Shown here: positions 5,944 to 37,936 of the stretch, piece by piece
Layout: each line of letters opens with the position of its first letter
Numbering within the stretch: the first letter of the stretch is position 1
Source of the DNA: Pyrinomonadaceae bacterium
GTDB lineage: Bacteria; Acidobacteriota; Blastocatellia; Pyrinomonadales; Pyrinomonadaceae
DNA: 64,000 bases
Assembly: GCA_019694395.1 (NCBI GenBank)
Contig: JAIBCC010000032.1
Span: 1-64,000, forward strand
Reading direction: 5' to 3'
Notes under the pieces: generated by a model
The model's input: only the letters and a program-made list of their open reading frames with translations
Databases searched by the model: none
What the model was told of the DNA's origin: nothing
Position numbers and translations under genes: made by a program

Positions 5944-6071
5944 TGCTTCCGATGTTTTTTTGTCTGATTTGATAGTTTTTCCGCTCCGTTTTCATCATAC
6001 AAAAGAAACAAAAGTAAGAGAAGTTTTCCCGGCGATTGCGTCAATTTCGGCAGATGTTTTATCAAAAGTTT

Positions 6072-8030
6072 TTAGTTTCCTACTGTTGTTCTGCCATCTT
6101 TTCCTCCTTCTTCCGATTTGACAGGAAGCGGATAAGTTCCGCGCGGTCCGGTAACAACGTGCGGTTTGATGAATTCGCCAAAATGAATTGGTTCGAGCAA
6201 ATCGGGATGCGAATCTTTGGTCAAAGCAAAATCTTCTACGCCATATTTTGCCGATTCAACCGAAACAAAACCGTCGCTTTTTTCAATGCTTGCACAGAGC
6301 AAAGAAGAACCATTTCCAACCAAAGCCGAAAATTCCGTTCCTTTGCGCTGATTGACGAATTGATTAAAACGAGCGATTTCGTCAGGCATAATTTCTTTGG
6401 CGGTGGTCATCACTCCGTCAAAAGCATCATTGAATTTCATCGAATCCGCACAGGGAATTCCTAGATTCGGCGTTCCGAGCATCATCAAATGCTTCACAAC
6501 AGGATAATTGTCGGGCAAAACCTGCATTTGTTTGTGAACATAAAGCCGCGCCACCAATCCGCCGGTTGAATGCGCGACCATATCAACGTGCCACGCATTA
6601 TTAGATTTTTGGATGCTTTCGACATACTTGGTCAAATCGTCGGCTTTGTCAAAAACGGATTTTCCTCCTTTGGTTGGTGCAGTTTGCCCTTCGACGGTAA
6701 TCGTCCCGCTTGAAACAGATTCTTTGCCGATTGCAGCTTTCCATCCGTAACTATGCGAAAGGGTAAGCAGATTTTGATAGAGTTCCAAAATTTTCGGACT
6801 CGTCCAGATTCCGGGAACAAAAACTATCGGTTTCGGGCTGATTTTCAGGTTTTTAGTCATCGCGTCTTTGAGTTTATATTCTTCCCAGGCTTCAGCCTTA
6901 ATTCGCTGCAAAAGACGCGGACGACCATCATCAAACCACGCATAGCCTTGCGAATTCCAGAGAATTTCTACCTCGCGCACTTCGCCTGCCTCCAATCGCA
7001 CGGAAACCGAACTGTCTTTCAACGGGTAATCAGGTTTTGCTCCGTCCCATTTATCGCCTTTGTAGGTTTCTTTGAAAGTGATTTCGGCAAATTTTGTTTC
7101 GTTTGAAAGATTGGCAACGGTTGCCTTGATTTTGACCAGATTTCCGTCAATCGTGCCGACCTGTTCGGTAATTTCCTGCCAATCGTTCCATTTCGGGAAC
7201 TTCATATCTTCAAAATGCAAATCTGTAATAATCAACTTTTGCGGACAGCGGGTAAAAGTCCAGGTGACAGTGTAAACAAAAGTTCTGACCGCACCTTTGC
7301 CATCGTCGCCCCAACTCTTTGAACCGCTCAATTTATCGGGACTATTCGGATCAATTTTCTGCCCGTTGATCGAAAAACTTTCGCCATCCATTTTGTAAGA
7401 CTCATTGGTCGAACGGTCATAAGGTTCGTTGTTTTTCGGTTGGCAATGACCGCTTCGTTTGACGTGTTCTTCACGTTTGAAAGTTCCCGTGGCATTAGGA
7501 AATCTGAGATTAAAACTGTAATTTCCACTCATTTCGTCAACGCTCAGATAAAAATCACGCGCCGAGCCTGTCGCTTTGGCTTCGGTAAAACGATTGTCAG
7601 TTCCTTCGATGATGAACCAATGCCCGTTTTCGCGCGAATTGCAGGTGTCAAAAACTCTTTCCTCGCCCCATTTTTTATCATCATCGGTAAAATTAACTTT
7701 TGCATTGACCGTTGGATTCTGCGGATTTGTCGAAGAATCAATGACTGCCGTTGCATTGTATTGATAATCGCGCGAATCTTTATGTTTAATGCGGTCAATA
7801 TTTTTACGAATGCCGGGTTCGTCCGAATCAAGCGAATCTTTCAAAGTCTTTTTGAACGAAACGACACCGCTCCAACCGCCCGCACATTTTGGGACAGATT
7901 GTTTGGTTGAAACAGGTTGCGAAGTTGGTTTGGCAGTTGCGCGCCGGGTTTGTCCAAAGGTTGTAATCAGACTGCTGAAAATAATTCCTAAAGCGATAAG
8001 TTGTTTGAAAAATAAGTTTCCGCGTTGCAT
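6072..8030 (-). CDS. Secreted alpha/beta-hydrolase (lipase/esterase-like) with N-terminal beta-rich region
   Basis: This 652-residue exported protein has a signal peptide at residues 1-25 (LIALGIIFSSLITTFG). Residues about 40-400 are beta-rich and hydrophilic with no recognised domain. The C-terminal third is an alpha/beta-hydrolase: PIVFVPGIWTSP gives the oxyanion strand, and VDMVAHSTGGLVARLYV holds the nucleophile Ser488 in an H-S-x-G-G elbow. Candidate acid and His residues lie further on, in a region resembling PGAP1/LCAT-like lipases. The likely role is hydrolysis of an ester in the periplasm or outside the cell. The ATG at 8030 has GGAGG. A TGATACG/TCCGCGTT element lies directly upstream, with the ribosome site right next to it. 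Confidence 0.8.
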   Translation of the reverse strand: MQRGNLFFKQLIALGIIFSSLITTFGQTRRATAKPTSQPVSTKQSVPKCAGGWSGVVSFKKTLKDSLDSDEPGIRKNIDRIKHKDSRDYQYNATAVIDSSTNPQNPTVNAKVNFTDDDKKWGEERVFDTCNSRENGHWFIIEGTDNRFTEAKATGSARDFYLSVDEMSGNYSFNLRFPNATGTFKREEHVKRSGHCQPKNNEPYDRSTNESYKMDGESFSINGQKIDPNSPDKLSGSKSWGDDGKGAVRTFVYTVTWTFTRCPQKLIITDLHFEDMKFPKWNDWQEITEQVGTIDGNLVKIKATVANLSNETKFAEITFKETYKGDKWDGAKPDYPLKDSSVSVRLEAGEVREVEILWNSQGYAWFDDGRPRLLQRIKAEAWEEYKLKDAMTKNLKISPKPIVFVPGIWTSPKILELYQNLLTLSHSYGWKAAIGKESVSSGTITVEGQTAPTKGGKSVFDKADDLTKYVESIQKSNNAWHVDMVAHSTGGLVARLYVHKQMQVLPDNYPVVKHLMMLGTPNLGIPCADSMKFNDAFDGVMTTAKEIMPDEIARFNQFVNQRKGTEFSALVGNGSSLLCASIEKSDGFVSVESAKYGVEDFALTKDSHPDLLEPIHFGEFIKPHVVTGPRGTYPLPVKSEEGGKDGRTTVGN

Positions 8031-17193: not shown

Positions 17194-17961
17194 ATGAGTA
17201 TTGAAATAGAAGAACTCCGAAGAATTTACAAAGATTTAATCGTTTCCATCAAAAATCCGCGTCCCCTCCCGAATTTAAAGATTGAGTTTTATCCGTATGT
17301 CGGTATTAACAATCGAATTCGTCTGCGCGACGATTTAATTCACGTTAAAATTTCTGATCTTTTAAGAGATGCTCCAATTGAATTACATCACGCACTTGCC
17401 GAAATTTTGTTGCGAAAACTGTATCGAAAAAGAGTTCCGGCATCCGTTTCGCAAATTTTTCAGGACTATATCAAACAAACCGAAATTCGCCAAAAATCCA
17501 TCGAAACACGCAAAACACGCGGACGCAAAATTTTGCGCGGTTCGGAAGGCACACATTACGATCTAGCGGAAATTTTTAATCTCCTTAACCAAATTTATTT
17601 TGAAGGCAAAATTCCGAAACCAACTCTAACCTGGTCTAATACCAACACTTCACGGATTTTGGGACATCATGATTCAGCGCACAATTCAATCACGATCAGC
17701 AAATCTTTGGATGATAATCGGGTCCCGCGTTTTGTGGTGGAATGTGTAATGTTTCACGAAATGCTTCATATCAAACATCCGACCAAATATATTAACGGAA
17801 GACGCTACAGTCACACACCCGCGTTTCGTCAGGATGAAAAAGAATTTGCCTTTTTTGAAGAATCCGAAGCGTGGATCGAAAAACATTGGGCGGAGTTTTC
17901 CAAAGGTAAAAAGAAAGTAAAAGGCAAAAAAGGATTTTTGCAGAGATTATTGGATTTTTAG
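17194..17961 (+). CDS. YgjP/SprT-like zinc metallopeptidase
   Basis: This 255-residue cytoplasmic protein has a zinc-binding HEMLH motif at residues 188-192 (VVECVMFHEMLHIKHP). A third ligand candidate lies in the downstream YSHTPAFRQDEKEF segment, as in SprT/YgjP-type peptidases (H-x-x-x-F spacing). The central region YFEGKIPKPTLTWSNTNTSRILGHHD matches the strand pattern that precedes the active site in that group. The C-terminus is Lys-rich (KGKKKVKGKKGF). The N-terminal half is basic and unrecognised. No ribosome-binding site precedes the ATG, so translation may be leaderless. It stands alone, divergent from hrcA. Confidence 0.8.
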   Translation: MSIEIEELRRIYKDLIVSIKNPRPLPNLKIEFYPYVGINNRIRLRDDLIHVKISDLLRDAPIELHHALAEILLRKLYRKRVPASVSQIFQDYIKQTEIRQKSIETRKTRGRKILRGSEGTHYDLAEIFNLLNQIYFEGKIPKPTLTWSNTNTSRILGHHDSAHNSITISKSLDDNRVPRFVVECVMFHEMLHIKHPTKYINGRRYSHTPAFRQDEKEFAFFEESEAWIEKHWAEFSKGKKKVKGKKGFLQRLLDF

Positions 17962-18047: not shown

Positions 18048-21000
18048 ATGCCTAGACTCAAATTTTCTTTGCCGATTGTAGTTTTATTGCTTTTGACACA
18101 TAGTCTTCTTGCCCAAAACAAAAAACTACAACCACACGAAATTTTGACGGGCAGAAGCAACGCCGCCACACAGTCATTTGTTATTGAAGCAAAAAAAGAT
18201 CAAGTTATCTCGCTCGAAATAAAACAGAATGGTATTGATATAGAAACAAAACTGTTTAGTCCAGAAAATTCTCTACTTGCCGAATCCGACAATCCGTTTA
18301 GCGAACAAGATACTGAAAGAGTTTTTGTGATTGCTGATGAAACGGGAAATTACCGGCTTGAAATAAAATCAAAATTTCCTGATGAAAAAGGAACTTTTAA
18401 CCTTAAATTAAATGATTTGCACCTTGCAACGCCCAATGATTTCAAACGCGCCGAAGCCGAAAAATTGTTTTCCAAAGCACAAATTCTCCGCACCACAGGG
18501 AAAACCGCGGACCGTAAAGCTGCTCTGCAAATGTTTGAGCAATCACTAGCGTTATGGCAAGAAGCAAAAGATGAATTTGGCGAGATTCGGACGCTTATAA
18601 ATGTATCTTATTTGAACCGGATATTGGGAAATAATGAAAAATCGGCGGAACTTGCAAATCTGATATTGAAATCACCGAACTTGCCTGAATACACTACTTA
18701 CAAAGCCGATGCGCTTTATCAAATTGCTCAAACTTACAGCGCAAGCAGCAAAATGTCCAAAGCGATAAAAACGCTTGAAGAATTATTAGCACTTTATCCA
18801 AATCCTGCGCCTGAAAAATCAATTCCGCTGGCAACTTTAGCCTTTTATCACCAAAGATTTGATGATACTGAAAAGGCGCAAAGTTTGTATTATCAATCGT
18901 TTGAAAATATCAAAAAATTCCCCGATATTTACAGCGAAGCTCAAGCCAGACACCAATTTGCGTTATTCAATTTTGATTACAATGAATTAGAAGAAGCGGT
19001 CAAAAATTTTAAATTAGCCGGAGAGTTACGCAAAAAAGGTGGATATATCAGAGGTTATGCGATTTCAATGACATTTTTGGCGATGACTTATCAACGAATG
19101 GAACGGTTTCCCGAATCGTTGGAGTTGTTGGAAAAGGCGTTTCAAATCAGCGTTGAATTTGGTGACGTCACAAATCAATTAGATACGTTAATTTATCTCG
19201 CCCGCGCCTATCGTGAAGCCGGAAATTACCAAAAAGCCTTGGAAATGTATCAAAAAGCGGAATCGCTTAATGGGCAAACCTCTAATAGTTTGTATTTAAG
19301 TTTAGCCACGACTTATCTTCTAATGTCCAATTTTACTGAGTCTCGGAAGAATTTTGAACTCGCCTTGGCTCTTTATCGGCAGAAAAAAGATGTGGGTGGT
19401 GAATCTTTGACTCTTTTTCAGTATGCTGCACTTGAAAGAGCCGAAAACAATCTTGATGCCGCCAAAGCAAAAATTGAGAGGTCATTGAAAATTGTTGAAG
19501 ATGAGCAGACTTCGTTTAGAAACAGCCGCCAATTAACAAGTTTTTTAGTCAATCGAAGAGGCTATTTTGATTTGTATATTGACGTTTTAATGCGTCTTGA
19601 CGAACAGCGTCCTAATGAAAATTTTGCCTTCAAAGCCTTGCAAGCGAGCGAAAACGCGAGAATGAGAACGCTGATTTGGCAACTGCGCGAGGCTCTTAAA
19701 AATTCTCCGCAATCGGTTGATTATCAATTATTTACGCAGATTCAAAAAAATCAGCAGCAACTTGGCGAGCAATTATCGCAACTTGCCAAAGCCCAAAGCA
19801 CTCCGAATAAAAATGCGAATATTTCGGAAATTGAAAATTCCATTGCGGAACTCAATAAACAAAACGAATTGCTCAAAGCACAGCTTCGCAAATCAAATCC
19901 GAATTTTGCTAATCTGGCGCAGCCGCCAACGATTTCGCTGGAGCAAATGCAAACGGAACTTGATGACGACGCGGCTTTGGTCGAATATTCGCTTGGCGAA
20001 CAGCGCAGTTATTTATGGATTGTGACAAAAAACAATTTTCAATCGTTTGTCTTGCCGAAAGGAAATGAAATTGAGGCACAAGCCCGAAATTTTTACGAAA
20101 CTTTAATTCAATCCGATAATTCTTCGAGGGTGCGTCCGCTTGATAAAAAGCAGGAAACTAAACAGCCCCCAATCAAGAATTTTAAGGAAGAAGCGGAAAA
20201 ATTGAGTCATATGATTCGGATTGAAAAATTAGCGAATCTTTCGGCAAAAAGATTGATTTTTGTGGCGGATGGCGCGTTAAATTTGATTCCTTTTTCAAGT
20301 TTAACTTTATCCGAAACCAATCCAACGATCATCGCAGATAAATTTGAAACATCGCAACTGCCGTCGTTGACCACGCTTCAAATAATTCGCCAGCAAAATA
20401 TTAAACCGTTTGCACCTAATTCTTTAGCAATTATCGCCGATCCTGTTTTTTCGATGAGTGATGAGCGATTAGCAAAAAAACGGAACAAACAAAATACGGT
20501 TGAAAATGATTTAGCCGCCACGCTTCGGGATTTTAGTTTAACCTCCATTCCGCGTCTGCCTTTTTCACGCATTGAGGCTCAGAAAATTGCTGACAGTTTG
20601 CCAAACAATTCTGTTTTGAATCTTGATTTTAAGGCAAGCCGTGAGCGATTGTTGAACGGCGAGTTTGACGGATACGACATTTTGCATTTTGCGACACACG
20701 GATTTTTGAATAATGAGCACCCCGAACTTTCCGGCTTGGTTTTGTCGCTGGTGGACGAAAAAGGTAACCAGCAAAACGGCTTTTTGCGGACTCAAGATTT
20801 ATATCTGCTCAAAATCAACCCGCAAATGGTCGTCCTTTCGGCGTGTCAAACTGGACTTGGCAAACAGGTCGAAAATGAAGGTTTGATTGGACTTACACGC
20901 GGATTTTTGGCAAATGGCACGCCTCGAATAATTTCGACTTTGTGGAAAGTTGACGATTCCGCCACCGCCGAATTTATGAGCCGTTTTTATCGCGCTTTGC

Positions 21001-21122
21001 TCAAAGAAAATCAAGTTCCTTCGGCAGCACTCAAAACGGCTCAAAATGAATTAAAGGCAATTCCGCGTTACGCACACCCGCGTTATTGGGCGGGGTTTGT
21101 GTTGACGGGGGAATGGAGGTAA
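18048..21122 (+). CDS. Exported TPR-CHAT domain protein (caspase-like peptidase fold)
   Basis: This 1024-residue protein has an N-terminal signal peptide (LPIVVLLLLTHSLLAQ). Residues about 25-130 form a beta-sandwich-like domain (VISLEIKQNGIDIETKLFSP), seen in other acidobacterial CHAT proteins. Roughly ten tetratricopeptide repeats span 140-500. A coiled coil covers about 570-625. The C-terminal CHAT domain spans about 640-1020 and has an intact catalytic pair: His884 in FATHGFLNNEHPELSG and Cys933 in VVLSACQTGLGKQVENEG. It ends WAGFVLTGEWR, a common CHAT terminus. CHAT proteases act in separase-like and defence (Craspase, gasdermin) systems. No such partner is adjacent here, so the role is open. 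AAGGAA precedes the ATG. Confidence 0.92.
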   Translation: MPRLKFSLPIVVLLLLTHSLLAQNKKLQPHEILTGRSNAATQSFVIEAKKDQVISLEIKQNGIDIETKLFSPENSLLAESDNPFSEQDTERVFVIADETGNYRLEIKSKFPDEKGTFNLKLNDLHLATPNDFKRAEAEKLFSKAQILRTTGKTADRKAALQMFEQSLALWQEAKDEFGEIRTLINVSYLNRILGNNEKSAELANLILKSPNLPEYTTYKADALYQIAQTYSASSKMSKAIKTLEELLALYPNPAPEKSIPLATLAFYHQRFDDTEKAQSLYYQSFENIKKFPDIYSEAQARHQFALFNFDYNELEEAVKNFKLAGELRKKGGYIRGYAISMTFLAMTYQRMERFPESLELLEKAFQISVEFGDVTNQLDTLIYLARAYREAGNYQKALEMYQKAESLNGQTSNSLYLSLATTYLLMSNFTESRKNFELALALYRQKKDVGGESLTLFQYAALERAENNLDAAKAKIERSLKIVEDEQTSFRNSRQLTSFLVNRRGYFDLYIDVLMRLDEQRPNENFAFKALQASENARMRTLIWQLREALKNSPQSVDYQLFTQIQKNQQQLGEQLSQLAKAQSTPNKNANISEIENSIAELNKQNELLKAQLRKSNPNFANLAQPPTISLEQMQTELDDDAALVEYSLGEQRSYLWIVTKNNFQSFVLPKGNEIEAQARNFYETLIQSDNSSRVRPLDKKQETKQPPIKNFKEEAEKLSHMIRIEKLANLSAKRLIFVADGALNLIPFSSLTLSETNPTIIADKFETSQLPSLTTLQIIRQQNIKPFAPNSLAIIADPVFSMSDERLAKKRNKQNTVENDLAATLRDFSLTSIPRLPFSRIEAQKIADSLPNNSVLNLDFKASRERLLNGEFDGYDILHFATHGFLNNEHPELSGLVLSLVDEKGNQQNGFLRTQDLYLLKINPQMVVLSACQTGLGKQVENEGLIGLTRGFLANGTPRIISTLWKVDDSATAEFMSRFYRALLKENQVPSAALKTAQNELKAIPRYAHPRYWAGFVLTGEWR

Positions 21123-21150: not shown

Positions 21151-22128
21151 CTAACGTGGCGGAAATAAATCAAAGACCGTATTTATCATTTCTCGTTGAC
21201 GGTCTTTTCCTACATCATGTTGTGCTTCAATATTTATGTAGTTTATCTTTTTTAATCCACAAAATATTGACAATGCTCCATCGTCAGGCTTCGGGTCTTG
21301 TTTTTGAATCGCAATGTTAAATGTTCTGTCTCTTTGGAATAATTTATCAAACAACCTCCTTTTTGAAACAATAAAAAAGTTGTCCAAGTCTTGTTCATTA
21401 AAAATATAAACCGCTTCTGTTTGTTTAGCATCGCCTCCCCTGCCTTGCACAAATTCTTTAATGCTTATTGAGGTGTCTGACCACAAAGCCGCAGTATTCG
21501 TATTATTGTGAACTGCTACTACAATTTCGTCATTGCGACGAGGCAAAAAAACTGCTTTCAGGTTCTCCGAAAAATTTTTGATTTCAGTGAGAACTTGTTT
21601 CGTTATCGGATTATTTTGATCTCTAAACTCGGATATTGTTTTATTTTCACATTTGCTTGTGCTGAAAGAGCCGTCACTTAATCTTGAACCATTTTCAGTG
21701 TCAGTTTGATGGTCTTTTTTGAGCGTTTCCCAATCTCCAACTTCACTAAAAATTCGGTTTGGGTCAACGCAAATTGTCTTCTCATTAAATTTGAAAAACA
21801 AATACCTTTGGGGCTTATCTTCCATTTTAGAAACTAACTCAACTAACCGCCCGCTACGACGCTGCTTAATTATATCTTTGACAAGATTTAGACCTGTTTG
21901 CTCAAAGTGATGCAAAACAATAAATGTTATAGGACTTTTTTTAGCACCGTTTTGTTGCTCGTAAGTGTTGACCACAAACGGGGTATCAAAGATCCTCAGT
22001 TCGGTGCTTCGAGTTGGAGTTATTGCTGGCTGTCCTAAACCGCTATTTTGATTTTGCGAATATGTTTGAATCAAACTCACAAAAAGAATAATTACTGCAT
22101 AACACGCTTTTTTACTAAAATATTTCAT
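21151..22128 (-). CDS. Secreted protein with DPNRIF and HNN motifs, putative hydrolase
   Basis: Starting at ATG 22128 (AGAGAGA upstream), the product is 325 residues with a signal peptide (KKACYAVIILFVSLIQTYSQ). An upstream TTG-type extension overlapping the previous gene is rejected. Three motifs stand out: FIVLHHFEQTGLN, ICVDPNRIFSEVGDW and VVAVHNNTNTAALWSD. Their order resembles secreted proteins with H-x-x-E, D-P-N-R and H-N-N motifs that look like zinc peptidase or amidase active sites, but I cannot place it in a named family with certainty. It is last of three tightly spaced secreted-protein genes (23907 to 21151) and converges with the CHAT gene. Confidence 0.65.
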   Translation of the reverse strand: MKYFSKKACYAVIILFVSLIQTYSQNQNSGLGQPAITPTRSTELRIFDTPFVVNTYEQQNGAKKSPITFIVLHHFEQTGLNLVKDIIKQRRSGRLVELVSKMEDKPQRYLFFKFNEKTICVDPNRIFSEVGDWETLKKDHQTDTENGSRLSDGSFSTSKCENKTISEFRDQNNPITKQVLTEIKNFSENLKAVFLPRRNDEIVVAVHNNTNTAALWSDTSISIKEFVQGRGGDAKQTEAVYIFNEQDLDNFFIVSKRRLFDKLFQRDRTFNIAIQKQDPKPDDGALSIFCGLKKINYINIEAQHDVGKDRQREMINTVFDLFPPR

Positions 22129-22160
22129 TTTGTCTCTCTTTAACCTATTTTTTGAAACCT

Positions 22161-22898
22161 TTACTCTGGAAATCTCTTGCGTTCCTTTCCTTTCATTTTG
22201 GCAAGTTTGGGAAGCCATTCTGTTACTGTTCCATAAGTGTCAGAATTACTAAAACTGCTTTCAGAAATTACAACAATGTTACCTTTTGAAATAATCGGTT
22301 CGGGAAATGAGCCAATCGTATTTCCATTTGGATTTGTTGTAGCAGTTGCCCATTTTTTTAAGCCACTCAAATTTGTATTATCTGAAACCGAAACCAGATA
22401 ATAAAAGCCATGATCGTCTTCATCATTTTCAGCCCAAAGTATTAAATTGCCGTTTCCCCTTTTATCAACGTCCAACCGAATCAATCGTCCACCACCCGAA
22501 AGTGAAGGATTGAATCCTTGACCAGACGAATTCCACGTTTTGCCGCCATCAGGACTGTAGCTCAAATCGTATTGATAGATGCACTGTCCATCAACAAGGC
22601 GGGAAGAAACCACCCAAATCTTGCCATCATTTGACAACGAAACTCCGTGTAGGCAATCAAACTTTCGTTTTTTCCAATCGTTCGTCTCTTTCACCAACAG
22701 ATAAGCTTGATTTGAAACATTCTTTGGCAACACGATTGCCAATGGTGGGAAATTCCCAACGCCAGTGTAGCCACTTGAGAATGCGAGATTTGCCATCTCT
22801 TGTTTTGTTAGAATTTGTGCATCGGCAACAAAACAAAACACACTCAAAATAACTAAATTAATCAAGATATTTTTTTGTAAAACTTTTCTATCAATCAC
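22161..22898 (-). CDS. Secreted Asp-box (BNR/sialidase-like) repeat protein
   Basis: This 245-residue exported protein starts with GTG at 22898, preceded by AAGGAG. The signal peptide is LINLVILSVFCFVADA. A classical Asp-box, SPDGGKTW (S-x-D-x-G-x-T-W), is visible at about residue 115, and a second weaker one (SLSNDGKIWVVSS) lies before it. This suggests a partial beta-propeller of the sialidase/BNR type. At 245 residues it is too short for a complete six-bladed sialidase and lacks the Arg triad, so it is probably a binding or structural protein. It sits 10 bases from the gene upstream and 32 from the gene downstream. Confidence 0.7.
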   Translation of the reverse strand: MIDRKVLQKNILINLVILSVFCFVADAQILTKQEMANLAFSSGYTGVGNFPPLAIVLPKNVSNQAYLLVKETNDWKKRKFDCLHGVSLSNDGKIWVVSSRLVDGQCIYQYDLSYSPDGGKTWNSSGQGFNPSLSGGGRLIRLDVDKRGNGNLILWAENDEDDHGFYYLVSVSDNTNLSGLKKWATATTNPNGNTIGSFPEPIISKGNIVVISESSFSNSDTYGTVTEWLPKLAKMKGKERKRFPE

Positions 22899-22908
22899 CT
22901 TCTGCTCC

Positions 22909-23907
22909 TTAAAGTTTTGACTGAAAACTTTTCATCATTTGAATAAAACTTTCAGGGGTAGTAAAGCCAACGCTTTGTTGCCATTGTTTGATCCTGTCAG
23001 CAATGTTTTCGGCGGTAAAAGGCTTTTGAATTTTGTAGTTAGCTGATGCGGGGATAATCGCAATCAAAATTCCCTTTCCACCGATGGTATAGTCACGATA
23101 GATTTCTTTTTTCGTTTTAGGCGGTGTAGTTTTTCCTAATAACGTCATATTCATAAAAACAGAGCCTTCGCCCAAATTATTCGCCGGACCTGTATCACCA
23201 ATAATGGCAAAAGACATTTGGTTATTTTTTGGATTAAAAGCCACAACCAAATCACCTACGATTGCACCAAAAGCCCTAACGGGATTTGCGCCTCCGGCTA
23301 AAACAAGATGTGGAAGATGTAAAGCATCCAGTTGATTTTTAGCTTCACATTCGCCCCTTTCATTGAGTGGCAAATCATTTTTTCTGGCAGTTAATGATCC
23401 AAAAAAACCTCTGTAATCTTTATACTCCTCTGATTTGAAGATACAAGGAACTTTATTTCCATTGTTATCAGTGGTTTTTGCAAGGACGTTTTCCCAGCTA
23501 ATTCGATAACCCTCTGGAACTTTCAAATAACCGCTGTCCCGCCATTTCTCAAAAACACCGATTGCTTCGCTATACCGACCACTGCATAAACTCTTTCCGT
23601 TCACTTCTGAAGTTTTGTAAACAGCAATCGCATTACAAACAGTGTTAATTGCCTTTGTTTCACCCTTCGGGTCCTGTGGGTTATATGACGTTGGTGAACC
23701 ATCAGTATTCACAGCCAATGGGGTTTTGAATAAAATCAGTTTTCGTTGCGGATCGCTGTTGTCTTGTAACAGCAATATCTTTTTGTTTTGGTCTGGAATA
23801 TTGGGCTGAAATATATCAGTTTTTTCAACCTTGTAGCTTTGAGCATTAGTTAAAGCGGCAAAAGCCACCGAAATAAAAATAATCGTCAGAAATTTGTTAA
23901 TTTGCAT
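22909..23907 (-). CDS. Secreted glycoside hydrolase family 75 (chitosanase)-like protein
   Basis: This 332-residue exported protein has a signal peptide (LTIIFISVAFAALTNAQ). The segment PHLVLAGGANPVRAFGAIVGDLVVAF is followed by MSFAIIGDTGPANNLGEGSVFMN. It matches the pattern around the catalytic Asp of GH75 chitosanase-like proteins (G-D-x-G-P ... G-E-G/A-S). The long N-terminal half is unrecognised. Chitosanase activity is inference from this short signature, and a non-catalytic relative is possible. It is first of three secreted-protein genes. A copy of the AATGAAATTT-N12-CGCCA element lies 40 bases upstream of its ATG, which has GGAG. Confidence 0.6.
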   Translation of the reverse strand: MQINKFLTIIFISVAFAALTNAQSYKVEKTDIFQPNIPDQNKKILLLQDNSDPQRKLILFKTPLAVNTDGSPTSYNPQDPKGETKAINTVCNAIAVYKTSEVNGKSLCSGRYSEAIGVFEKWRDSGYLKVPEGYRISWENVLAKTTDNNGNKVPCIFKSEEYKDYRGFFGSLTARKNDLPLNERGECEAKNQLDALHLPHLVLAGGANPVRAFGAIVGDLVVAFNPKNNQMSFAIIGDTGPANNLGEGSVFMNMTLLGKTTPPKTKKEIYRDYTIGGKGILIAIIPASANYKIQKPFTAENIADRIKQWQQSVGFTTPESFIQMMKSFQSKL

Positions 23908-23940: not shown

Positions 23941-23972
23941 ACAAATGGCGAAAATTTTCTAGAAATTACATT
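23941..23972 (-). promoter_or_regulatory. ECF-type promoter-like element, copy A
   Basis: On the minus strand AATGTAATTT, 12 bases, CGCCATTTG. It precedes the operon of three secreted proteins beginning at 23907. Two further copies with the same 12-base spacing lie at 27514 and 28503, the latter in front of the anti-sigma gene. This suggests a promoter recognised by the ECF sigma factor encoded at 28546-29100. The flanking 23973-24072 stretch is T/C-rich with nothing else recognised. Confidence 0.5.
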
Positions 23973-24072
23973 TTTTTTCTTTTTTTTCTTTTTTTCGTTT
24001 GAGTATTGTCTTGCTTCAATCCTCAACATTTGTATTACTTCCAATTAAACTCTCTAAATGATTGACTTACGG

Positions 24073-24975
24073 TTAAGCCGCATTTTGATTTATTTGCCTT
24101 ATCCTATTCCGTTGATGAGTTTTAGCTTGCTTAATGTGTTCCGCAAAAAAGGCGACATCTTCTTGACAAGTTATTTTTGTTTTGGCAGGAATTGTAATTC
24201 CGGCGGGAATGACTAAATCGGGGGCAATGGTGACCATTGGACCTATGTAACTCATTGAGCCGATTATTGTTCTTGCTCCAATTCTAGTAAAACTATCAAT
24301 GCCAGAATACGCTTTTACTTTGACTCCATCATCCAAAAATGTATGTAATCCAATGATGCACCCCGGATTTACTTCGACATCTTTTCCCATTTCTACGCCC
24401 GGACCAATCATTGTCAGATGCCCAACTACTGATCTATCTCCGATTTTTATTGCCTCAACTATAATTGTGCCATCGTGTTGAACTATATTTGTTCCAATAG
24501 TTGCTTTGTTTGATAAATATGCTCCGTTTCCAATTTGCAAGAGAGCAACATCTCTAATCCAAGTGTCTGGATAAGTAACGAAATCCATACTCCCTTGATA
24601 CCCCCAAAGGCGAAACAACATTTTTTTCAAGGTTGAAAAAGAAAGGACGATAAAAAAGATTGGCGTAAAATAATAAATTGTGGTCAAACACAATCCATAT
24701 AAACGACGATGAAAATAAACTTTATTTCCGAGTTTACGGGGAAAACGTCCGGCAATGATGTATTTTCGATGCGGTAAGCAGAGCAATCCGGCAAAAAAGA
24801 TGAAACATAAAACGTAAACTATTGGGGATAGTAATGTTATACAGATTTGCAAAATAAAATTGGGCATTGACAGATACAACCCAAAGCAAATGCCTAAAGG
24901 CACGCAACAAATTATAAATAGGTAAATTGGAGCTAAAAACTTGAATAAAATTTCGCGTGTTTTTGAGATATTCAT
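24073..24975 (-). CDS. Membrane-anchored left-handed beta-helix (hexapeptide) acyltransferase
   Basis: The ATG at 24975 (GAGGGTGA directly upstream) gives 300 residues; a start at 24993 is less likely because its codons form that ribosome site. Residues about 10-80 and 95-120 hold four hydrophobic segments. Residues about 135-275 are hexapeptide repeats ([LIV]-G-x-x-x-x type: IGNGAYLSNKATIG, IGDRSVVGHLTMIGPGVEMG, IGARTIIGSMSYIGP) forming a left-handed beta-helix. The layout resembles membrane-associated acyltransferases found at the end of polyketide, peptide or lipid pathways. It lies four bases downstream of the desaturase stop, so the two are co-translated, and the operon also contains histidine ammonia-lyase. 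Confidence 0.8.
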   Translation of the reverse strand: MNISKTREILFKFLAPIYLFIICCVPLGICFGLYLSMPNFILQICITLLSPIVYVLCFIFFAGLLCLPHRKYIIAGRFPRKLGNKVYFHRRLYGLCLTTIYYFTPIFFIVLSFSTLKKMLFRLWGYQGSMDFVTYPDTWIRDVALLQIGNGAYLSNKATIGTNIVQHDGTIIVEAIKIGDRSVVGHLTMIGPGVEMGKDVEVNPGCIIGLHTFLDDGVKVKAYSGIDSFTRIGARTIIGSMSYIGPMVTIAPDLVIPAGITIPAKTKITCQEDVAFFAEHIKQAKTHQRNRIRQINQNAA

Positions 24976-24979
24976 AAAT

Positions 24980-25840
24980 TCACCCTCTTTCAATGTTTTG
25001 AAATTCTAATTGTCTTTTTTCGATACTCTTTTGTGTGGGAACTTTAACATTTTTGACAATACCTAATTTTTCAAATAGTTTGATTTGCAGATAACTTAAA
25101 TCAAGTTCATACCAAACTAAGCCATGGCGAGCGGAGGTCGGAAAAGCGTGATGATTATTGTGCCAGCCTTCACCAAAAGCCAAAATCCCTAGAACGGCGT
25201 TATTCCGTGAGTTTTCGCCGGTCTTGAATCTTTGACTGCCAAATTTATGAGCAAAAGAATTTATGCCCCACGTTATATGCCAGCTAATCACGGTTCTCAC
25301 CCCAACTCCCCAAGCCAACATTCCCCACCCGCCTAAACAATACAGTAAAATAGCGACAATTATTGCAGGGACTAGATTTATCCTTTCAAAATGAAAATAA
25401 AATTTATCTTGGAGGAGGTCACGCGAATATTTTTGACAAACTTCAATTGAATAATTCTGACTGATACCAAAAAGCATCCAACCCGTATGCGACCAGAAAA
25501 AACCTTTGTCGGGTGAATGCGGGTCTTCCTCTTTTTCAGTAAAAGCGTGATGAATTCGATGAGTTGTTACCCAACTAATTGCCCCTTTTTGCAAGGTTAG
25601 GCTGCCCAAAATTGCCAATAGATATTCAAACCATTTAGGCGATTCAAAAGAACGATGGGTTAATAATCGGTGATACCCGATTCCAATCCCCCAACCAACC
25701 GAAAACCACAATAAAATGAAGGCAACAATAAAATTAGTCCAGGTAAAAGAGAATATCGCCGTTAATGCAAGCGCGTGAATGGTTATGAATATGAGGAGAT
25801 TTTGCCAATTAGTTTGATTTTCTTTAACTTTATTTTCCAT
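24980..25840 (-). CDS. Acyl-CoA desaturase (stearoyl delta-9 type), di-iron membrane enzyme
   Basis: This 286-residue integral membrane enzyme inserts a cis double bond into an acyl chain using O2 and a di-iron centre. The three histidine boxes are complete: HRLLTHRSF (57-65), HRIHHAFTEKEEDPHSP (94 on) and HNNHHAFP near residue 245. Four or more hydrophobic helices flank them. The HRxxTH/HRxHH/HNxHH pattern is that of the stearoyl-CoA desaturase branch rather than the DesA phospholipid type. It lies between the lyase gene (22 bases upstream) and the acyltransferase gene, which suggests a fatty-acyl product or a membrane-lipid role for the operon. Confidence 0.94.
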   Translation of the reverse strand: MENKVKENQTNWQNLLIFITIHALALTAIFSFTWTNFIVAFILLWFSVGWGIGIGYHRLLTHRSFESPKWFEYLLAILGSLTLQKGAISWVTTHRIHHAFTEKEEDPHSPDKGFFWSHTGWMLFGISQNYSIEVCQKYSRDLLQDKFYFHFERINLVPAIIVAILLYCLGGWGMLAWGVGVRTVISWHITWGINSFAHKFGSQRFKTGENSRNNAVLGILAFGEGWHNNHHAFPTSARHGLVWYELDLSYLQIKLFEKLGIVKNVKVPTQKSIEKRQLEFQNIERG

Positions 25841-25861
25841 TTTCTAAAATCTTTTTAACCC

Positions 25862-27415
25862 TTAATAATTGATAGCAATTATCTTGTTCAAATTTTTCGA
25901 TAGTTCTTCAATCAGCGGTGAAAAAGGCGCATCTTCCAGCATTGGCGGCACAATTTCTCTGATTTTTCGGTAAATTTCGCGTAAAGGTTTTCCCGGTTGC
26001 ATGGGTTTGGCAAACTCTAAGGCTTGAGCGGCAGCAAGCATTTCTATCGCCAAAATGTTTTTTAAGTTTTCCGTAATCGTCCGCAGTTTTAAGGCAGAAG
26101 TCATTCCCATTGAAACGTGGTCTTCCGTTCCGGCTGAGGTCGGCAACGAATCGGTTGAAGCCGGATGCGCCAGAACTTTGTTTTCGCCGCAAAGCGCAAC
26201 CGCCGTAACGTGGGCAATCATAAAGCCCGAATTTATACCCGATTCTTTGACCAAAAATGCCGGCAACCCCGACAAATCAGGGTTGACCAATCTTTCAATC
26301 CGCCGTTCGCTGATTGCTCCAAGTTCCGAAGCCGCAATTGCCGCATAGTCAAACGCCATTGCCAACGCTTCGCCGTGAAAATTCCCGCCCGATAAAACTT
26401 TGTCTTCATCAGGAAAAATCAGCGGATTGTCAGTAGCGGAATTAAATTCTATTTCGCACAAATGCTCAACGTGCGCCAGCGCATCACGCACCGCACCGTG
26501 AACTTGCGGCATACAACGCAAACTGTATGCGTCCTGCACTCTCGCCTGAGCCTTTTCGGAAACCAAAATTTCGCTGCCTTCGGTTAAATTCAAAAGATTT
26601 TCGGCAACCGCAATTTGTCCGTTAAAAGGTCGCATCTGATGAATCAAAGCATTGAAAGCATCCTTTTTGCCGTAAAGTGCTTCAAGCGTCATTGCGCCGC
26701 AAATATCCGCTAATTGACAGAGAAATTTCAGTTCTTTCAAAGCGATTGCGCCAACAGCAGTTAAAGCCTCTGTGCCGTTAATCAACGCTAATCCTTCTTT
26801 AGCCTCTAAGGTCAAAGGCTTAATTTCCGCCCGTTTTAATGCTTCGCCGCCCGGCATTATTTCCCCTTGATAAAACGCTGCGCCTTCACCAATCAGAACG
26901 GATGCAGCGTGTGCCAATGGCGATAAATCTCCCGATGCACCAACCGAACCTTTTTCGGGAATCACAGGCGTAACTCCGCGATTAAGCATTTCGAGTAAAG
27001 TTTCAACCACGACAGGACGTGCGCCTGAATGCCCTTTGGCTAAAACATTGGCACGAAGCAAAAGAACCGTGCGGGCTTCGGTAATTGATAAAGGTTTCCC
27101 GATTCCGCAACAATGTGATCGGACTAGATTTAGCTGTAATTTTGTCAATTCTTTATTTGAAATCGAAACATTCGCCAATCTGCCGAACCCGGTATTGATT
27201 CCATAAACAACTGCGCCGCTTTTTAATTTTTCGGTCAAAAAACAATAAGATTTTTCGACCTTTTGCTTTGCTGTTGCTGATAACAAAAATTGTGTTCGAT
27301 TGTTTTCTAATTGGCTCAGATGTTCAAAAGTCAAATTCTTACCGTCAACGAAAACAGCTGATTTGGAGCAACTGAAATCCGTTTTTAGCGAAGTAATTTT
27401 TTTTGTGTTGACCAT
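25862..27415 (-). CDS. hutH: Histidine ammonia-lyase
   Basis: This enzyme of the aromatic amino acid lyase family converts L-histidine to urocanate and ammonia. The self-made MIO cofactor derives from Ala150-Ser-Gly152 in GSVGASGDLSPLAHA. The catalytic Tyr region is YGINTGFGRLANV. The C-terminal TEDHVSMG carries the Glu typical of histidine lyases rather than phenylalanine or tyrosine lyases. The ATG at 27415 gives 517 residues, the normal length; the open frame reaches a TTG at 27496, which would add 27 atypical residues. No hutU, hutI or hutG is nearby. Instead it leads an operon with a desaturase and an acyltransferase, so a biosynthetic or regulatory use of urocanate is conceivable. Confidence 0.93.
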   Translation of the reverse strand: MVNTKKITSLKTDFSCSKSAVFVDGKNLTFEHLSQLENNRTQFLLSATAKQKVEKSYCFLTEKLKSGAVVYGINTGFGRLANVSISNKELTKLQLNLVRSHCCGIGKPLSITEARTVLLLRANVLAKGHSGARPVVVETLLEMLNRGVTPVIPEKGSVGASGDLSPLAHAASVLIGEGAAFYQGEIMPGGEALKRAEIKPLTLEAKEGLALINGTEALTAVGAIALKELKFLCQLADICGAMTLEALYGKKDAFNALIHQMRPFNGQIAVAENLLNLTEGSEILVSEKAQARVQDAYSLRCMPQVHGAVRDALAHVEHLCEIEFNSATDNPLIFPDEDKVLSGGNFHGEALAMAFDYAAIAASELGAISERRIERLVNPDLSGLPAFLVKESGINSGFMIAHVTAVALCGENKVLAHPASTDSLPTSAGTEDHVSMGMTSALKLRTITENLKNILAIEMLAAAQALEFAKPMQPGKPLREIYRKIREIVPPMLEDAPFSPLIEELSKNLNKIIAINY

Positions 27416-27513
27416 ATAATTTTCAGTTTTAAAAGCCAACAAGTTGAGCAAATATTTCGCTTTTTTGCGCCATAAAATTTCTTCAAATATTTCCAAAAAC
27501 TTGTCGTTTCAAT

Positions 27514-27546
27514 TACAAGTGGCGAAAAAATTCCAGAAATTTCATT
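27514..27546 (-). promoter_or_regulatory. ECF-type promoter-like element, copy B
   Basis: On the minus strand AATGAAATTT, 12 bases, CGCCACTTG. It lies about 100 bases upstream of the hutH ATG at 27415 and just upstream of the alternative TTG at 27496. Downstream genes are hutH, the desaturase and the acyltransferase. Confidence 0.5.
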
Positions 27547-27572
27547 TGGAAAAAAATATTTTTTGATTTTTT

Positions 27573-28487
27573 TTAGCGGCGAACTCTAAAAGTATATTCA
27601 GCAATAGATTCGGCAGGTTTTTCGGGCGATTTTCCTTCCAGAAAAATGATGTAAGTTTGATTTGAAAGTTTATCGGCGGGTAAATTTAGATTGAGTGATT
27701 TGAGATTGGAAGTTGTAAAAATAGTTTCTCCGTCAGCGGTTTTGACGGTAGCTTGGTAAGTAGCGTATTTGGCGGAGTCTTTTGGCAAACTCAAATTAAG
27801 ATTGATTTTGCCAACATTTGGTGTAATTTTGAGAAATTGTTCGCCGTTGCTCCGCAGAGTTCCGGGGAAAAGGGTGAAAGTTGCTAAAGTCGGTTTAATC
27901 GGCTCGGTAGTTTTCGGAGTTGGTGTCGGCGTAGGTGTTGACGGCGTAGGAGTTTTGACTGCTACATTTTTATTCGGCTGATTAATATTTTCACTAATTG
28001 GGCTGGGCGATTCCGTTTTGTCTGCGATAATCGGAGTTGGCGATCCGGTTGGCGTAATTTGAACCGTTTCCTCTTTTTTGTTTTGCCGATTCAGCCAAAG
28101 AACAAAAACGCCGCCGAGCAATAAAACGGCTAAAGCGGTGAAAGCTAAGGCTTTAGATAAACTGAAACTGCCGAGAAGTTTCTGCCAAAACGGAATTTTC
28201 GATTCTGCTCCGATAATTTCGACAGGTTTGGCTTGGACATTTTTCAGAAAGATTTGAGCAGATTTCAGTTTTTCGTATCTTGCTGGAGTCAGCAAATAAT
28301 TCTTTTCAAAATGCAAGCGTTCATTTGCCGAAAGTCCGCCTTGTAAATAAGCGTAAATCAGTTCATCTTCAATAATTTGGGCGGATTCAGTTAGCTCTGC
28401 GCTGACGGCTAATTCTTCTTCCAAATCATTTGCCTCAATTTCGCCTAATTCACCTAAATAATATTTTTTTATCTTTGTTTCAATCAT
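27573..28487 (-). CDS. Putative anti-sigma factor, single-pass membrane protein
   Basis: This 304-residue protein has a cytoplasmic N-terminal helical region at about 1-85 (YYLGELGEIEANDLEEELAV... ANERLHFEKNYLLTPARYEKL split here). A single transmembrane helix follows (about 112-132, ALAFTALAVLLLGGVFVLWL), then a Pro/Thr-rich linker (TPTPSTPTPTPTPK) and a C-terminal beta-rich periplasmic domain (TFTLFPGTLRSNGEQFLKI ... YTFRVRR). The topology is that of acidobacterial anti-sigma factors, but the zinc-binding HxxxCxxC motif is absent. It lies 58 bases downstream of the ECF sigma gene. A copy of the putative ECF promoter is right in front of its ATG, suggesting autoregulation. Confidence 0.7.
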   Translation of the reverse strand: MIETKIKKYYLGELGEIEANDLEEELAVSAELTESAQIIEDELIYAYLQGGLSANERLHFEKNYLLTPARYEKLKSAQIFLKNVQAKPVEIIGAESKIPFWQKLLGSFSLSKALAFTALAVLLLGGVFVLWLNRQNKKEETVQITPTGSPTPIIADKTESPSPISENINQPNKNVAVKTPTPSTPTPTPTPKTTEPIKPTLATFTLFPGTLRSNGEQFLKITPNVGKINLNLSLPKDSAKYATYQATVKTADGETIFTTSNLKSLNLNLPADKLSNQTYIIFLEGKSPEKPAESIAEYTFRVRR

Positions 28488-28502
28488 TGTCGTCGGTTAT
28501 CT

Positions 28503-28534
28503 TTAAATGGCGAAAATCACGCACAAATTTCATT
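28503..28534 (-). promoter_or_regulatory. ECF-type promoter-like element, copy C (anti-sigma gene)
   Basis: On the minus strand AATGAAATTT, 12 bases, CGCCATTTA, ending 16 bases before the ATG at 28487. The predicted start would give a leader of only about 10-15 bases. It lies in the gap between the ECF sigma gene and its presumed anti-sigma gene, the usual place for an autoregulated promoter. Confidence 0.55.
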
Positions 28535-28545
28535 CGGCTGAAAAA

Positions 28546-29100
28546 TTATTTTAATTTATTTTTGACGCAATTTTCCAACCTTTGCCTGAGTCGAAAAATT
28601 TTCAGTCTCAAATTGTTGGTTGAAATATCAAGTTTTGCTGCCAAGATTTCCCGATGTTCGATTGATTTTTCAAAAGGCAAATCGGCAAAATAATCGCGTA
28701 AAAATTCTTTTTCTTCCGCCTTTAGATTTTCAAAACATTCACGTTGCAACGCATAATCATCCGTCTCCTCTTTAATTTCAAAACGCGTTTTTTCTGCATA
28801 AAATCCGTCCACCGCGATTCTTTCTTTCTCTGTTTTCTTTAATCTTTCCAAAAAAACAAATCTGGCAACCCCAAAGCTATATTTGGTTAAATCATCAATT
28901 TGCACATTGTTTGAGACTTTAACGGCAACCCGGTCAAGTGTTTCATCCGCCGCCATTTCAGGTTCGTCATCGCCTTTGATCTGGAAAAAACGGATTAAGG
29001 ATGCGCGTAATTTTGTATAAGAAACGGCTGAACTTTCCTTTACGGGTGAAAGGTCATTGAGTAATTTAGCAAAAGATTCAGTTGTCAGCGGTTCAGCCAT
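28546..29100 (-). CDS. ECF-type sigma-70 family factor (diverged)
   Basis: Starting at ATG 29100, the product is 184 residues. Region 2-like helices span about 20-95, with DDLTKYSFGVARFVFLERLKK resembling the core-binding and -10 recognition helices. The C-terminal helix-turn-helix (EHREILAAKLDISTNNLRLKIFRLRQRLENCV split by sense) matches sigma region 4, ending in the typical R-x-x-x-R-L-x-x-C pattern. The sequence is far from the classic RpoE group, so confidence rests on architecture and on the membrane anti-sigma gene directly downstream. Its probable targets are the AATGAAATTT-N12-CGCCA elements. Confidence 0.75.
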   Translation of the reverse strand: MAEPLTTESFAKLLNDLSPVKESSAVSYTKLRASLIRFFQIKGDDEPEMAADETLDRVAVKVSNNVQIDDLTKYSFGVARFVFLERLKKTEKERIAVDGFYAEKTRFEIKEETDDYALQRECFENLKAEEKEFLRDYFADLPFEKSIEHREILAAKLDISTNNLRLKIFRLRQRLENCVKNKLK

Positions 29101-29203
29101 CTTCAAAAATAGTTGAATTTAAGGATTTGGGGGGATAGGTTTTAGAAAACTAATTGATGATACAGATTTTTCAGGAATTTTGAAATAAAACCCCCAAAAA
29201 TCT

Positions 29204-36991: not shown

Positions 36992-37936
36992 TTATTGTTC
37001 AGTAACTTGATTCTTTACAGGAACTCCGCCTGATGCCACAATTGCAGTTTTTACCGCTGTTACAAGTCTTCCTTTTGGAGCAGTTCCTTTGATAAGTAAA
37101 TACGAATTTCCCTTTTCGACCTGAACATTCTTAAACCCTTTTTTTCGTAAAGCTTTAGTAACTTTTGCCACTAATTTTTCATCAATCGTTATAGTTTTTG
37201 AAGGCGTATCACTTGCCGAAGGTCGAAGCAGTTTTGGAGGCGTAAAAGTTTTGATGGTTTTGAGGAAAATAATTATGCTTCCGTCTGTATCTTTTCGATG
37301 AGTTTTGATGGCGAAAATTCCATCGCCTTGATCGTAACTAATCGCCCGCAAAAGATAAGTTTCTCCAATTTTAACCGGCACAGTTTGATAAAAATTTAAT
37401 CCGTTCGCGGAGAATTCATTTTTTATATCGCTTATTTTGTCAGGCGGTTGATACTTAGCAAGGGCAATAAATTCCGCACTATTTTCGTTGATTTTTTCAA
37501 TTGGCAACTCTCCAATATCAGCGATTAGTCCGTGATTTTCTTTAACCGTAAAATTTCGCTGCATAATAAACGAATTTTTCTTTAATTCAAGTAAGGGAGC
37601 AAAATAATAGTTTGAGATTTCGGTAAAAGGATAAATTGATCCTCCAAAGCTGTCTGGGTTATCTAAAGGTTTATCAATCATCCCGTCAGGAAAAAGTCTA
37701 AATGCCTTTACTCCGATTTTGTCAGCTTCGGCAGAATCTTCCTTACTTACAGAAACCACTTCTTCCATCAATTTTTGCCAATACTCCTGAACTTTATCCG
37801 AAGAATAGTGGGTCCGTTTCATTTGGCTCGTAACCTTTCGCCATTTGCTAATTTTTTCCAGACGCAATAAATCCTGACTATAAATAAAATTGGTTAGCAG
37901 AAAGATAAAAAAAGATAGTTTGAGAAAAGTTTTCAT
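36992..37936 (-). CDS. Secreted protein with C-terminal BON-like domain
   Basis: The ATG at 37936 (GGAGA upstream) begins the signal peptide MKTFLKLSFFIFLLTNFIYS; the in-frame extension to 37954 is not needed. Product 314 residues. Residues about 20-240 are unrecognised, with several Phe/Tyr-rich strands. The last 65 residues (ITIDEKLVAKVTKALRKKGF ... GTAPKGRLVTAVKTAIVASG) align closely with the C-terminal BON domain of the lipoprotein at 38456-38935, including the ending PVKNxVTEx. The two proteins therefore share a domain by duplication. BON domains bind phospholipid or peptidoglycan. Confidence 0.7.
   Translation of the reverse strand: MKTFLKLSFFIFLLTNFIYSQDLLRLEKISKWRKVTSQMKRTHYSSDKVQEYWQKLMEEVVSVSKEDSAEADKIGVKAFRLFPDGMIDKPLDNPDSFGGSIYPFTEISNYYFAPLLELKKNSFIMQRNFTVKENHGLIADIGELPIEKINENSAEFIALAKYQPPDKISDIKNEFSANGLNFYQTVPVKIGETYLLRAISYDQGDGIFAIKTHRKDTDGSIIIFLKTIKTFTPPKLLRPSASDTPSKTITIDEKLVAKVTKALRKKGFKNVQVEKGNSYLLIKGTAPKGRLVTAVKTAIVASGGVPVKNQVTEQ

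Follow-up and report, generated by a model that had tools for sequence, protein, structure and literature searches.

Predicted ECF-type promoters at the junction of sigma and anti-sigma genes in the Blastocatellia: a class-wide architecture and a probable small local regulon

In bacteria of the class Blastocatellia, an extracytoplasmic function (ECF)-type promoter is predicted directly after the stop codon of the sigma gene and before the anti-sigma gene, with a -35 element that often contains the TGA of that stop codon. The stretch analysed here, referred to as the window, comprises 64,000 nucleotides of a Pyrinomonadaceae bacterium, a soil Acidobacterium (GenBank assembly GCA_019694395.1, contig JAIBCC010000032.1, positions 1 to 64,000). 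It holds three copies of a bipartite motif (P1, P2 and P3), which very probably serve as promoters for the stress-type ECF sigma factor whose gene lies at 28546-29106, P1 feeding the anti-sigma gene and P2 and P3 feeding the output. The module is predicted to combine negative feedback with a small regulon that is private to the sigma factor and in many cases consists of exported proteins. The new part is this class-wide architecture, not a recognition class. The principal features are:

28504-28534, minus strand: P1, predicted ECF-type promoter at the sigma/anti-sigma junction; -35 TGAAATTT at 28532-28525; -10 TTCGCCATTT, with CGCCA at 28512-28508.
27516-27546, minus strand: P2, predicted ECF-type promoter before the hutH-desaturase-transferase operon; -35 TGAAATTT at 27544-27537; CGCCA at 27524-27520.
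23942-23972, minus strand: P3, predicted ECF-type promoter before the exported-protein operon; -35 TGTAATTT at 23970-23963; CGCCA at 23950-23946.
28546-29106, minus strand: ECF-type sigma factor (TIGR02989, predicted fold), with a probable ATG start at 29100.
27573-28487, minus strand: putative membrane anti-sigma factor (synteny with sigma across relatives, alignment, structural model).

The three copies share the pattern TGWAATTT-N10-TTCGCCAYTTR. When up to three mismatches are allowed they are the only matches in the window, against 0.38 expected, and none of 100 shuffled sequences reaches three. The original prediction, made from the letters of the window, had described three bipartite copies beside a sigma/anti-sigma pair, with no further copy in the window, and both statements hold, the starts having been one or two bases off. 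Its account of two shared blocks separated by a free spacer needs amendment: the three copies are real, but the first reads AATGTAATTT, one base off the block then given, and the last five spacer bases are WTTTT in all three. Because WTTTT ends the spacer in every copy, the second block is in fact longer, namely WTTTTCGCCAYTTR. The predicted sense position upstream of genes is also borne out, since every copy precedes a minus-strand gene in sense orientation: P1 the anti-sigma gene, P2 an operon of hutH, a desaturase and a hexapeptide transferase, and P3 an operon of three probably exported proteins. At all three sites the DNA directly upstream of the -35 is A/T-rich with A-tracts, and downstream of P3 a GGAG is followed by an ATG.

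A genome-wide search with TGWAATTT-N10-TTCGCCAYTTR, of the kind that the original prediction had proposed, gave three exact matches, all at this locus, none with one mismatch, and four with two mismatches (source genome 6.37 Mb in 101 contigs and 88.8% complete; the genomes of relatives are likewise incomplete). According to lists of open reading frames (ORFs), the four have no clear sense gene start behind them, with the possible exception of C79:140027; a regulon spread over the whole genome was rejected on these results. The longer form of the motif gave three exact matches and one with three mismatches, and the reversed control gave none. The sites and their confinement to the locus are thus computed directly. 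Three similar copies within 4.6 kb, with ungapped similarity of 66-72% over 58 nucleotides, might be taken for what is left of an intergenic repeat that moved or was duplicated; however, identity outside the blocks is mostly that of A/T tracts, the spacers differ, the genome has no other copy, and in relatives the equivalent place carries the element with a different sequence. This origin is exceedingly improbable, and was rejected on the grounds that the flanks align mainly in A/T tracts.

The junction element was sought at 93 relatives of the sigma gene, all taken from genomes of its own family. A two-block motif search in the DNA 3' of the sigma stop codons gave [TC]GAAAT - N10 (or 9) - TTYGTCAyTA, and a search from blind starts over the 93 sigma-gene 3' ends converged on TGAAATGT-N10-TTCGTCA. 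Since blind starts converge on it, the junction motif was not imposed by the copies in the window. A site was counted at a threshold of at least 9 bits. Using a model trained on the same junctions, 54% of junctions reach this value, compared with 4% behind other ORFs, 5% within the sigma genes and 2% of the stretches upstream of them; in two-fold cross-validation the figures are 38% for junctions and 3.6% for controls. A held-out test in five other families of the class gave 42% of 40 junctions as against 3% of 423 controls (p = 7e-10), so the motif is computed in other families as well. Stretches upstream of sigma are not enriched, in the family set (as above) or in the held-out families (4%), both being at background level. 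Among sigma genes that end in TGA, 27 of 47 have a site, and in 18 of these 27 the -35 begins at the TGA stop; TGA-ended control ORFs reach 9 bits in 3.4% of cases and have no such stop-codon pattern. P1 lies at the same position as the element in related loci, and a model trained without the window, applied to all positions on both strands of the 64 kb, places P1 at rank 1, P2 at rank 2 and P3 at rank 5. A further match of the model, at 17827 upstream of the CHAT gene, was discarded, as it runs into the end of the gene before it and is a poor fit to the local variant. In one related locus (L079), the junction element downstream of sigma is followed first by what looks like a short, degenerate second copy of an anti-sigma N-terminus (about 5980-6125) and only then by the intact anti-sigma gene.

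An AA-containing -35, a CGT-like -10 and a spacing of about 15-17 bases, the usual form of an ECF promoter, are seen both in TGAAA-N15-CGCCA in the window and in the family consensus. The original prediction had proposed a new recognition class, as CGCCA stands in place of CGTC and the blocks are unlike GGAAC/CGTC. That view was given up, since blind motif discovery returned an ECF consensus; in addition, the -35 is of the SigW type (ATTGAAACCTTT) with the same A-tract, the spacing is that of ECF promoters, and the variants within one family form a continuum (CGTCA, CGCCA, TGTCA, GCCAGT), the family-wide -10 being CGTCA with CGCCA common. A new class is accordingly quite improbable. The -10 of SigW has a form different from the CGCCA or CGTCA, followed by CTT or TTA, that is seen here. 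The short intergenic stretch of a probable operon, with its frequent stop-codon overlap, would also suit an element that acts in RNA, either as a processing site or as a leader structure between the sigma and anti-sigma transcripts. However, the element recurs before other genes, away from sigma genes, and its two blocks at a fixed spacing of 9-10 bases fit recognition in DNA; the window has no match to any Rfam family. Rejected on the missing Rfam match and on the copies before unrelated genes, a role in RNA is highly unlikely.

Whether the neighbouring sigma factor reads the motif was approached by co-variation in 49 sigma/junction pairs. Similarity matrices were chosen, as single-column mutual information is noisy at near-invariant motif positions, and partial correlations were evaluated with 1000 permutations. 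After removal of the rest of the protein and sigma4, similarity of the -10 tracks sigma region 2.4 (partial r 0.31, equalled in 0 of 1000 permutations, which ignore phylogeny), and it does not track sigma4 (-0.11). Similarity of the -35 tracks the recognition helix of sigma4 (0.21, 2 of 1000 permutations). At the position of residue 168 in the window sigma, Asn or Ser occurs with -35 elements of the CGACA type, and mostly Ile, Val, Leu or Met with those of the TGAAA type; the window sigma has Leu at 168 and a TGAAA -35. This computed co-variation ties the motif variants to the DNA-contact regions of sigma and is support, not proof, for the sigma factor as reader. It also bears on the possibility that the motif is the operator of another regulator, for example a response regulator, which co-regulates the three operons while the sigma factor is a bystander. 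Conserved bipartite blocks can be operators; set against this are the ECF promoter geometry, the consensus reached by blind search, the occurrence of the element behind the sigma gene across families and the tracking just described, which together make an operator improbable. The local sigma regulon of the original prediction gains support from the locus-confined copies, from equivalent junction elements in relatives and from bases that track DNA-contact regions.

The sigma factor itself, a 186-residue ORF, matches TIGR02989 (E 1.8e-8, 34.4 bits), below the subfamily cut-off of 124.55 bits; it has no match among Pfam families, and a search of PDB sequences with the sigma profile gave none. The AlphaFold model (183 residues; predicted local distance difference test, pLDDT, 93) has two helical domains, and its top 13 Foldseek matches are all ECF sigma factors, including RpoE, AlgU, SigH and SigW; the scores are weak (E 0.02-0.5), and whole-chain template-modelling values are low owing to a differing domain arrangement. 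The predicted structure thus has sigma2 and sigma4 with a short linker and no sigma3, as in ECF (group IV) sigma factors. The sigma half of the original sigma/anti-sigma pair is ECF-like by TIGR02989, although below cut-off, and by predicted fold. The putative anti-sigma factor has, from alignment and model, a helical cytosolic domain (1-85), a transmembrane helix (about 110-138), a Pro-rich linker and a beta-sandwich (200-303) that is Ig/FN3-like; its gene stands where that of an anti-sigma factor would be expected, and the role is suggested by this gene layout. In the fold search only the outer beta-sandwich was matched, with no solved anti-sigma factor among the matches. The adjoining cognate anti-sigma gene typical of ECF sigma factors is represented in orthologous loci by the syntenic membrane protein. 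The named relatives are Pyrinomonadaceae and other Acidobacteria.

From these data we infer binding by sigma, the start of transcription and the direction of the feedback. In the proposed circuit, sigma4 would contact the -35 TGAAATTT and sigma2 the -10 TTCGCCAYTT, and free sigma would read P1, P2 and P3. P1, directly behind the sigma gene, would provide additional transcripts of the anti-sigma gene, such that active sigma would raise the level of its own inhibitor, with negative feedback and a fast reset as the outcome. P2 and P3 would provide the response, i.e., the hutH-desaturase-transferase operon and the operon of probably exported proteins, while transcription of sigma would start at a different, upstream promoter. 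ECF sigma factors usually, though not always, activate their own gene from a promoter in front of it. No such site was found before sigma, and the loop is accordingly predicted to be negative, with no positive arm. The autoregulation of the original prediction therefore needs correction, in that the predicted feedback acts on the anti-sigma gene.

About ten other loci carry a second copy of their own motif variant, with the control near zero, and where a gene can be placed behind such a copy, it is usually in sense and within about 200 bases. One genome (G009, loci L266-L270) has five exact and two near copies genome-wide, with a control of 0; five of its copies lie outside the sigma locus, of which four closely precede a gene in sense, in most cases one that encodes an exported protein, while the fifth is intergenic with no gene so placed. 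Its copies stand mostly 40-60 bases before exported-protein genes, a dispersed regulon readable by exact pattern. Another genome (G015) has exactly two copies, both local. Among the target genes in relatives, one (L257:1849-3591) looks like an exported di-haem c-type protein (CSTCH, CAQCH), and one (L123:1911-2789) encodes a trypsin-family protease (PF00089, E 6.7e-24).

Several observations weigh against P1 to P3 as promoters of a sigma-specific regulon and against the generality of the junction site. Three of the top six window matches of the junction-trained model are inside genes (ranks 3 and 4, at 26710 and 47083, and the match at 37146). P1 is only about 12 bases from the annotated ATG of the anti-sigma gene, without a clear ribosome site. 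Similarity of the -35 also tracks sigma2, although less strongly (0.14), in a test without a phylogeny model. The junction site is not universal, with 38-54% over threshold and about half of junctions without a clear site; some sigma factors read other sequences or have no junction site. Finally, a genome-wide check of G041, which carries an ortholog of the window sigma, found the junction copy only, so the output operons are not conserved.

The other genes of the locus are:

25862-27496, minus strand: hutH, histidine ammonia-lyase-type, first gene behind P2 (TIGR01225, 666 bits against a cut-off of 539).
24980-25840, minus strand: fatty acid desaturase, P2 operon (PF00487, E 1.6e-22).
24073-24993, minus strand: membrane protein with a hexapeptide-repeat transferase domain, P2 operon (PF00132, E 2.1e-12).
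22909-23907, minus strand: first gene behind P3, encoding an exported protein whose start resembles a signal peptide; weak likeness to GH75 chitosanase.
22161-22898, minus strand: probably exported protein, P3 operon (ORF, hydrophobic N-terminus, no family).
21151-22218, minus strand: probably exported protein, P3 operon (ORF, no family).
18048-21122, plus strand: TPR-CHAT protein, probable signalling partner (PF12770, E 2.1e-62), with a signal-peptide-like start.

Of the gene names first proposed, hutH, FA_desaturase and the hexapeptide-repeat transferase stand, but the secreted GH75-like assignment is weak (Pfam E = 0.024, below the curated cut-off). The hutH ORF is listed from a TTG at 27496, and family matches start about 47 residues further in; its true start is probably the ATG at 27415, which would give a leader of roughly 100 bases behind P2. 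No homologs of the hutH, desaturase, transferase or exported-protein genes were found among the related and orthologous loci fetched. In orthologous loci the CHAT gene is convergent to the anti-sigma gene, whereas in the window the P2 and P3 operons stand between. Because homologs are missing there, these operons look like recent additions that carry the promoter, and the junction promoter looks like an old, class-wide trait.

Judged by motif, 47 of 93 loci have a TPR-CHAT gene close to sigma, as do 25 of the 41 loci with long flanks. The genome of the window has only twelve CHAT genes and seven sigma relatives, five of which have a CHAT gene no more than about 8 kb away. The His and Cys of the CHAT active site are kept in 96 of 96 alignable domains, and both are intact in the window protein (HFATHG and SACQTG). 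In nine loci a single ORF of about 1200 residues comprises an anti-sigma domain, one transmembrane stretch, TPRs and CHAT, and two of these (L074 and L075) belong to the window's own genome:

L124:1904-5431, L075, L074, L121, L203, L108, L118, L107 and L195: fused anti-sigma-transmembrane-TPR-CHAT ORFs, CHAT His and Cys intact.

The nine fusions, the CHAT neighbourhood and the Csx29/Csx30/CASP-sigma precedent described below suggest, as a hypothesis, that CHAT proteolysis may control the anti-sigma factor and hence sigma. The TPR repeats would sense an envelope or extracellular cue, and CHAT, whether exported on its own or forming the outer portion of the fused polypeptide, would cleave the membrane anti-sigma factor, or trigger its cleavage, and so release sigma; exported proteins would then be made and the junction promoter would remake the inhibitor. 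That an extracytoplasmic, caspase-like CHAT protease gates a whole family of ECF switches in the Blastocatellia, a non-CRISPR counterpart of Csx29/Csx30/CASP-sigma, is a tentative proposal, plausible but on balance doubtful.

If the promoter reading is true, the promoters, and hence the private regulons, of many uncharacterised Acidobacteriota sigma factors would be readable from the bases at the sigma/anti-sigma junction, with a matching protein-DNA code of which residue 168 is an example. A circuit found throughout the class, with sigma driving its inhibitor instead of itself, would be added, and CHAT proteases would become possible controllers of membrane anti-sigma factors.

Four known systems invite comparison. 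ECF54 sigma factors are reported to have CHAT-domain neighbours and no anti-sigma factor (PMC8999054); the window resembles them in the CHAT neighbourhood, but it has a membrane anti-sigma candidate and in this departs from the ECF54 description. The type III-E CRISPR system Csx29/Csx30/CASP-sigma (PMC10028731) has an ECF-like sigma, an inhibitor, a TPR-CHAT protease and sigma sites within the locus, all of which have counterparts here; here, however, the inhibitor is membrane-bound, the CHAT domain belongs either to an exported protein or to the same polypeptide as the anti-sigma factor, and proteolysis is hypothetical. No Cas7-11 was identified at the locus, and no search aimed at Cas7-11 was made; NF041236 matches the window sigma weakly (E 0.0034, 17 bits, cut-off 100). 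With SigW of Bacillus subtilis, whose -35 is ATTGAAACCTTT (PMC8103513), the window sites share a TGAAA-type -35, an A-tract and ECF spacing. A positive autoregulation arm is typical of ECF sigma factors (PMC8103513), which activate their own gene, whereas sigma factors of the window type would activate only the anti-sigma gene. The closest precedent, and the only close one in the open-licence literature searched, is the SigH-dependent rshA promoter of Corynebacterium glutamicum, which drives the anti-sigma gene alone while sigma is transcribed from housekeeping promoters (PMC3489674). There, as predicted here, an ECF-type promoter placed towards the 3' side of the sigma region feeds only the anti-sigma gene. 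However, rshA is a single actinobacterial case with the promoter inside sigH, whereas the predicted site in the Blastocatellia occupies the junction between the genes, frequently takes the stop codon into its -35, and is class-wide, with a variant for each sigma factor.

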